DNA of 64,000 nt from Rosa chinensis (lineage: Eukaryota > Streptophyta > Magnoliopsida > Rosales > Rosaceae): the NCBI RefSeq assembly GCF_002994745.2, contig NW_020126842.1, positions 62,001 to 126,000 on the forward strand, read 5' to 3'. The number at the start of each line of letters is the position of its first letter. Positions within the stretch are counted from its first letter, which is position 1. The notes beneath the pieces are model-generated. The model was not told the origin of the DNA. It searched no databases and saw only the letters and a program-made list of their open reading frames with translations. The position numbers and the translations under genes are program-made. Shown here piece by piece: positions 33,330 through 33,989 of this stretch.

Positions 33330-33989
33330 CTAAGCCATGTCTGCATCTCCGTAGGAGTTGAGGCTGAGCTCAAGGGAAATGCGAGAGTCACCGCCATAGC
33401 CGCTACCTCCCTCGGAAGTAGTCTTCATGTTGTCAAAGATGTCCTCACCATGCATGGGGAATAGTGGAAGGGTTTCAATCTCCTGGTGATATTCTCCTCG
33501 TTGTTCCATGATCGATCCATCAACACCATAGCCGACACGTGACCCAAAATTTAGATCAATGGATCTGTCAGTACTAGTAGAACCAGTGGAACCAAAGTTT
33601 AGATCAATGGACCTACCATCATCAGTAGAACTAGTGGATCCAAAATTGAGATCGAGAGAGCCACCAACCCGAACGTTCCGAAATTCCTTCAACTTCTGCC
33701 TCTCACGAGCCTTGAGGTTCTGGAACCAAAAGAAGACGTTCTTGTCCTCGATCTGCCCATACTGTTTCAGATGAAGGCAGATCTCTTGAATCTGCTCTGG
33801 AGTTGGGTACTTAAAACCCTTATCATAGTAAAGGCCCTTGAGGATTCTTAGTTGAGGCGGTGTGGGAGCCCACCGGTTACTACTCCCTGCTGCTTGGATG
33901 CTTCCTCCCTCCTCGGTTGGTTGCTGGGCTTGTAATTCCATTTGTTGCTGGGTTTGTAACTCCATTAGTTGCAGAGTTCGTGGTTCCAT
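33330..33989 (-). CDS. WUSCHEL-clade (WOX) homeobox protein, 219 aa, carried by element B
   Basis: WOX proteins are nuclear transcription factors that set stem-cell identity. The start ATG at 33989 was chosen because MEP resembles WUS N-termini; the frame stays open 67 codons further upstream but crosses the TATA motif. Residues 39-103 are a plant WOX homeodomain: RWAPTPPQL, the extended loops typical of WOX, and recognition helix KNVFFWFQNLKARERQK. WUS usually has a His where this has Leu after WFQN. Residues 173-180 are the WUS box TLPLFPMH, and 205-211 an EAR-type SLELSLN. Residues 111-150 hold three S[LI]DLNFGS repeats at exact 16-residue spacing. The N-terminus is Gln-rich. No intron interrupts the homeodomain. 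The gene is antisense to the retroelement and complete. Confidence 0.93.
   Translation of the reverse strand: MEPRTLQLMELQTQQQMELQAQQPTEEGGSIQAAGSSNRWAPTPPQLRILKGLYYDKGFKYPTPEQIQEICLHLKQYGQIEDKNVFFWFQNLKARERQKLKEFRNVRVGGSLDLNFGSTSSTDDGRSIDLNFGSTGSTSTDRSIDLNFGSRVGYGVDGSIMEQRGEYHQEIETLPLFPMHGEDIFDNMKTTSEGGSGYGGDSRISLELSLNSYGDADMA

Follow-up and report, generated by a model that had tools for sequence, protein, structure and literature searches.

How does a complete WUSCHEL-type homeobox gene come to lie inside a retrotransposon, and can such a position account for the excess of WOX genes published for rose? In the 64-kb stretch of Rosa chinensis DNA analysed here (the window), the gene corresponds to the minus-strand frame 33330-33989 and is located antisense within an LTR element, W (28595-39233), in which gag-pol was not found. 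We consider it likely that this complete gene, carried antisense in a gag-pol-less LTR element, has spread to hundreds of Rosa copies by retrotransposition.

Structure of the element and its surroundings

The preliminary description of this locus had presented the ORF as cargo of an LTR element bounded by the target duplication GTGTA. Indeed, two GTGTA copies flank an element that extends beyond the coordinates given there, and the ORF lies inside both of its LTRs, as a minus-strand frame in a plus-strand element (Table 1). W is inserted into the 3' LTR of A, an older relative with coding regions: over the 96 bp to the right of W, the sequence agrees at 97.9% with the terminal part of A's 5' LTR, and that 5' LTR shows the unbroken (empty) site. 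The LTR start, the primer-binding site and the polypurine tract of W are the same as in the coding relatives in the window, or one base off. None of 11 gag-pol protein pieces from two relatives matched the internal region of W at E <= 0.01, whereas two of the 11 matched a gag-bearing stretch of a relative that served as control. With its LTR pair, primer-binding site, polypurine tract and target duplication and no gag-pol, W is a non-autonomous LTR retrotransposon.

The LTRs differ by one mismatch in 562 bp in their first part and are identical at 1493 of 1500 positions in their second part (2 substitutions in 1495 aligned positions), which amounts to three substitutions in 2057 aligned positions (K ~0.0015). 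Clock rates of 6.5e-9 to 1.3e-8 serve for LTR dating; at these rates, W is 0.06-0.11 million years old and A 1.5-2.9 million years old. The 5' LTR also contains an additional divergent LTR piece of 1.4 kb (87%), absent from the 3' LTR; this piece sets in at the homologous LTR position and closes with a backward jump in the manner of a template switch.

In the internal region, A's leader (17325-18064) is split into two pieces by an insert of 2.84 kb that, according to the alignment, comprises two post-pol modules, the WOX gene and a plus-strand ORF of 176 aa. Each side of this insert has a match to the same ~9 bp of A's leader (17932-17940). A Pack-MULE origin of the insert is not supported, its ends showing no inverted repeat beyond a 9-bp match at chance level. 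The two post-pol modules agree with the earlier placement of the ORF between Athila 3'-region modules; the Athila label itself goes back to the preliminary description, and we adopt it as an assumption for an element without RT. The 176-aa ORF matched no Pfam family at E <= 0.1. Its start, MARTKVTPRRG (34592-34624), resembles the histone H3 tail, probably by chance, because some of its relatives begin with MVRTK or MIRTK.

Relative A has a single frame for gag, protease, RT and RNase H (18689-24308), whereas its integrase region is spread over several other frames, so that A is probably not an active helper. The minus-strand relative has no gag within the window, and one relative in the window has the Pfam order protease-RT-RNase H-integrase. 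Autonomous Athila-type relatives would likely supply the enzymes for W-like elements in trans, the LTR start, primer-binding site and polypurine tract being the cis parts that W would need and has kept.

Repeats occupy much of the window. A second gypsy element is arranged in tandem at 48693-64000 (LTR-internal-LTR-internal-LTR), with 8033-bp stretches that are 99.93% identical at a step of ~7.3 kb and first and last LTRs identical over 756 bp; it looks like a product of LTR-LTR recombination. Just past A's 3' LTR, there is a satellite array (39375-40418) with units of ~158 and 140 bp, a length reminiscent of a rose pericentromeric satellite.

Table 1. Features of element W and its cargo, in window coordinates
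Feature	Position	Strand	Basis or remark
Left target-site duplication GTGTA	28590..28594	.	Directly before the 5' LTR
5' LTR	28595..32061	+	28595-29160 and 30562-32061 match the 3' LTR; ~29161-30561 extra
Leader	32062..32647	+	82% to A 17325-17940
Primer-binding site TGGCGCCGTTGCCGGGG	32067..32083	+	Same sequence as at two other sites of the window (7191, 17330)
Post-pol module, copy 1	32840..33124	+	Like A 24304-24581
WUSCHEL-type ORF, 219 aa	33330..33989	-	Homeodomain aa 38-101, three DLNF repeats, WUS box aa 173-178, EAR from aa 205
Pyrimidine-rich stretch	33990..34091	-	Frame stays open to ATG 34091
TATA-like CTATAAATAG	34099..34108	-	Sole exact match in the 64-kb window
Putative promoter	34211..34408	-	91-99-bp tandem duplication (34211-34309 / 34305-34395, 80%); CACGTG at 34216 and 34403
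Second ORF, 176 aa	34592..35122	+	98% identical to an 18-member protein cluster of Rosa chinensis
Post-pol module, copy 2	35120..35401	+	Counterpart of copy 1
Rest of leader	35492..35632	+	91% to A 17932-18064
3' internal region	35618..37157	+	35646-36241 and 36553-37172 match A's post-pol region at 66-69%
Polypurine tract AAGTATGGGGGAATT	37158..37172	+	Like relatives in the window but for one base
3' LTR	37173..39233	+	Pairs with the 5' LTR
Right target-site duplication GTGTA	39234..39238	.	Followed by the remainder of A's 3' LTR, to ~39329

The WUSCHEL-type frame, its upstream region and its capture

The 219-residue product matches the WUSCHEL homeodomain 6ry3 (phmmer E = 6e-22) somewhat more strongly than STENOFOLIA (2e-19), as well as the Pfam Homeodomain family (E = 7e-11); judged at the sequence level, its similarity to the WUSCHEL homeodomain is not due to chance. 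In line with the complete WOX ORF described before, it has a WOX-type homeodomain, a WUS box of the TLxLFP type (TLPLFP) and a C-terminal EAR motif (SLELSLN), as in WUS-clade WOX proteins. An AlphaFold2 model built with 25 aligned sequences has a pLDDT of 88-95 per ten-residue block over residues 41-100 and a mean of 58 over the whole protein. Foldseek gave 11 matches for this model at E <= 0.001, every one a WUS-HD or STENOFOLIA chain, with WUS-HD in the top places.

The residues by which Arabidopsis WUS reads bases are R38, Q89, N90 and R94 (PMC7203112). Aligned without gaps to 6ry3, the protein of W retains all four as R39, Q90, N91 and R95; it has F87 and K101 in place of Y86 and R100, which contact the DNA backbone in WUS, and L92 in place of H91. 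The ORF of W thus shares with Arabidopsis WUSCHEL the homeodomain fold, the base-reading residues, the WUS box and the EAR motif, whereas it differs in the leucine instead of histidine after WFQN, in the DLNF-type repeats of its linker and in its location inside an element. Since R39, Q90, N91 and R95 are kept, DNA binding in the manner of WUSCHEL is predicted, and the protein would act as a repressor through its WUS box and EAR motif. A 48-bp tandem unit in the linker (33544-33653) underlies the DLNF-type repeats, which in our own reading resemble EAR motifs.

A tblastn search of the 64-kb window identified this frame as the single WOX copy. Its G+C content is 48%, that of its upstream stretch 45% and that of the second ORF 54%, compared with 16-38% in the other measured segments. 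The frame was earlier singled out as intact, and no stop or frameshift was found; intactness is, however, to be expected in a single copy with nearly identical LTRs, and the open frame of W therefore says little about selection.

According to the ORF listing, the frame stays open further upstream, to ATG 34091 (253 aa). The protein read from ATG 33989 begins with MEPRTLQ, with MEP as in WUS, and ATG 33989 is the likelier start, because the TATA-like motif starts 16 nt upstream of ATG 34091 versus 118 nt upstream of ATG 33989. The stretch between the two codons (33990-34091) is likely the 5' UTR of the WOX gene. The TATA-like motif noted in the preliminary description is present at 34108-34099 (-); with up to one mismatch, it has 12 matches in the window versus 5.46 expected. 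Two CACGTG sites occur in the 409 bases of 34092-34500, a stretch chosen post hoc, versus 0.03 expected, and one of 300 shuffles reached two; across the whole window, five were seen versus 4.38 expected, i.e., there is no enrichment. The WOX gene would be transcribed from a promoter of its own, with this TATA-like box and the two G-box cores, against the element transcript. Neither upstream CACGTG site has the TCA...TGA flanks of the WUS G-box TCACGTGA. Autoregulation through these sites may be considered as a weak idea, since the flanks differ, the stretch was picked post hoc and the window is not enriched. The preferred WUS site TGAATGAA was not found in the 3' LTR, the internal region or the promoter of W. 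Control of W's own LTR by WUS is not supported, both TGAATGAA and TTAATGG being missing from the 3' LTR.

The signs that bear on the capture route are the intronless frame and the missing sense-strand poly(A), yet also the promoter-like stretch upstream. As previously observed, the frame is unbroken, with no intron within 33330-33989; Arabidopsis WUS has introns. The poly(A) tail of a processed retrogene was likewise not found on the sense strand after the WOX stop, where the WOX strand is T-rich. The promoter-like stretch counts against a simple mRNA copy, because an mRNA copy would not bring a promoter. The Fragaria-like WUS protein P0156 diverges from P0058 directly behind YSNICQG, in the way expected if an intron had been translated, and the linker of W does not align there.

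Relatives in Rosa and comparison with known systems

The best protein matches of the WOX ORF belong to Rosa chinensis, the first at 99%, and the ORF falls in a large group of Rosa proteins that databases already list under WOX or WUSCHEL-like names. Among the best 120 of 181 matches, we identified 65 related clusters with 375 member sequences, 62 of the clusters being Rosa-named and three (11 sequences) known from ENA only; member sequences are not equivalent to element copies and possibly come from more than one assembly. When the Argentina WUS was used as query, the best 120 of 2379 matches contained four further Rosa clusters (P0127, P0128, P0151 and P0171) and an additional WUS-like protein of Fragaria (P0152); the largest clusters from outside Rosa among them were from Gossypium (25 and 18 members) and Quercus (21 members). 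There were 13 pattern matches in viral contigs, with no relative among them.

In a tree of 79 rows, restricted to the WUS type among WOX proteins, 64 of the 65 clusters group with the window ORF in a single clade (SH-aLRT 98), P0071 being counted among the 65 and placed in no tree and P0151 being in neither the tally nor a tree. This clade adjoins the WUS proteins of Argentina and Fragaria, apart from 12 other WUS proteins, and the joint group has an SH-aLRT support of 100. In a second tree, to which P0127, P0128, P0152, P0156 and P0171 were added and from which P0031, P0036, P0063, P0065 and P0066 were dropped, the support of the Rosa clade is 92, and P0127 is the Rosa copy nearest to Argentina WUS. 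The cellular Rosa WUS may be among the seven members of cluster P0055. Comparison of P0007 with the window ORF revealed 116 of 118 residues shared after the homeodomain and just 54 of 64 within it; some of the copies are mosaics.

Across the 65 aligned rows, no other block is as invariable as the WUS box (0 of 148) or the EAR core (0 of 153), and one of 105 is as invariable as the helix 3 core, in a protein-level comparison (not dN/dS) that uses sliding, overlapping blocks of annotated proteins and is therefore biased to intact frames. TL[PS]LFP is present in 58 rows, the EAR core in 57 and FQN in 51, and TLPLFP followed by an LxLxL/F motif in 54, the number of DLNF-type repeats varying from 0 to 5 per protein. 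Such motif conservation hints that, during the spread of the family, the protein benefited either the element or the host. Key motifs have nevertheless been lost from some members: FQN is missing in 14 of the 65 rows and the WUS box-EAR pair in 11.

Vigna provides a precedent for LTR elements that carry WOX genes. In the accessible text of PMC10714607, the WOX genes of Vigna marina and V. riukiuensis lie mostly between identical LTRs with target duplications, and those of V. riukiuensis are amplified to >1000 copies. The arrangement of a WOX gene inside LTRs with a target duplication is shared with W, the multiple copies in Rosa being known as proteins alone (375 sequences), whereas the host is a legume and that text does not give the lineage, orientation, promoter or WOX type. 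Since the Rosa clade adjoins the WUS of Rosoideae, away from two Vigna WUS proteins (P0086 and P0091), the sequences argue for separate captures in Rosa and Vigna. A WOX expansion was also described in V. reflexo-pilosa (PMC10357499), and no WOX-carrying element is reported in the accessible parts of PMC13175896 and PMC11728184.

An antisense ORF in the internal region is also known as aORF-3R in Grande, RIRE2 and Retand, and a promoter of its own and a nuclear protein were reported for gene23 of Grande (PMC7264820). According to the same review, aORF-3R proteins had not been described as clearly similar to any database protein (PMC7264820), whereas the ORF of W is plainly related to a host gene and lies in an element where gag-pol is missing.

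Explanations for the rose WOX excess

A total of 381 RcWOX genes were reported in rose, including 364 in clades I-V, which are rose-only among the four species compared and of which clade V accounts for 265; WOX counts of 170 and 105 were given for R. multiflora and R. rugosa (PMC11405225). Among the points in common with the ORF of W, 86.8% of these genes lack annotated UTRs, and the motifs quoted for clades IV and V match the window ORF, those of clade V its C-terminal part (PMC11405225). The study treats these copies as a gene-family expansion, supposes whole-genome duplication as the cause while asking for further evidence and leaving the cause open, and has in its main text no word beginning with "transpos" (PMC11405225), whereas here the gene is cargo of an LTR element. 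Among the literature matches listed, which lie mostly outside subscription journals, no paper linked the rose WOX expansion to retrotransposons.

Under the explanation favoured here, the other Rosa WOX copies, known as proteins alone, would also lie inside LTR elements, and most of them would probably be silenced. It is quite possible, in overlap with this explanation, that the same spread carried the WOX copy as dead weight in a high-copy non-autonomous element, with no role of its own. Almost no expression was recorded in rooting cuttings for 359 of the 364 clade I-V genes (PMC11405225), and this near-silence is more readily reconciled with silent cargo than with an active protein. The open frame expected between near-identical LTRs, the absence of both WUS sites from the 3' LTR and the rows without FQN also favour a mere passenger. 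In contrast, a protein of no consequence is not what one would expect from a family in which the WUS box and the EAR motif are the least variable blocks despite diverged linkers and homeodomains and in which TLPLFP and the following LxLxL/F motif are so widely kept.

At the other extreme, W might be a plant counterpart of oncogene-carrying retroviruses. The element would have taken WUSCHEL, added the repressor-like DLNF repeats and used the protein to keep or make stem-cell-like cells, so that its insertions reach the germ line, independently in Rosa and in Vigna. We regard this scenario as unlikely.

We think it improbable that the element serves as a silencing device, its antisense transcripts giving rise to small RNAs against cellular WUS. 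The antisense layout of the WOX gene in W would suit such a role, and antisense transcripts of plant LTR elements have been discussed as possible sources of dsRNA (PMC7264820); however, the ORF shares just 40-41% protein identity with the WUS of Fragaria and Argentina.

That the host itself expanded the WOX genes, by whole-genome or segmental duplication, and that the copy in W was merely caught in an element is very improbable, even though whole-genome duplication is the published hypothesis. The gene of W is enclosed by both LTRs and a target duplication, with an empty site to compare; within the rose genome, the number of collinear genes was 0, and the RcWOX genes are distributed over all seven chromosomes, with 226 of the 381 on chromosome 2 (PMC11405225). 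The odd extra piece in the 5' LTR and the abundance of repeats in the window might hint at an assembly artefact that joined a host WOX gene to the element, which is nevertheless hardly credible given that both boundaries, the target duplication and the empty site are concordant and that Rosa protein copies at 99%, along with many near-copies, occur among the best 120 of 181 matches.

Retrotransposition of W-like elements thus remains the preferred reading, and W likely provides a concrete, testable cause for the published WOX excess in rose. If this is true, most of the rose WOX "genes" would be cargo of mobile elements and would bias both gene tallies and expression analyses. W and the Vigna elements taken together suggest repeated uptake of WOX genes by LTR elements, be it by coincidence or because an element profits from carrying a meristem gene. 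Plants are not known to set aside an early germ line, so that any element active in stem cells would be active in cells that pass on their DNA to offspring.

Two observations from other rose genomes may be mentioned in this context. In the R. rugosa genome, a "WUS/WUSCHEL" orthogroup is listed with the figures 46, 14 and 32 (PMC8213826). A 23-kb stretch of R. multiflora that includes a WUSCHEL-like match is missing at the same locus of R. rugosa (PMC3503547).
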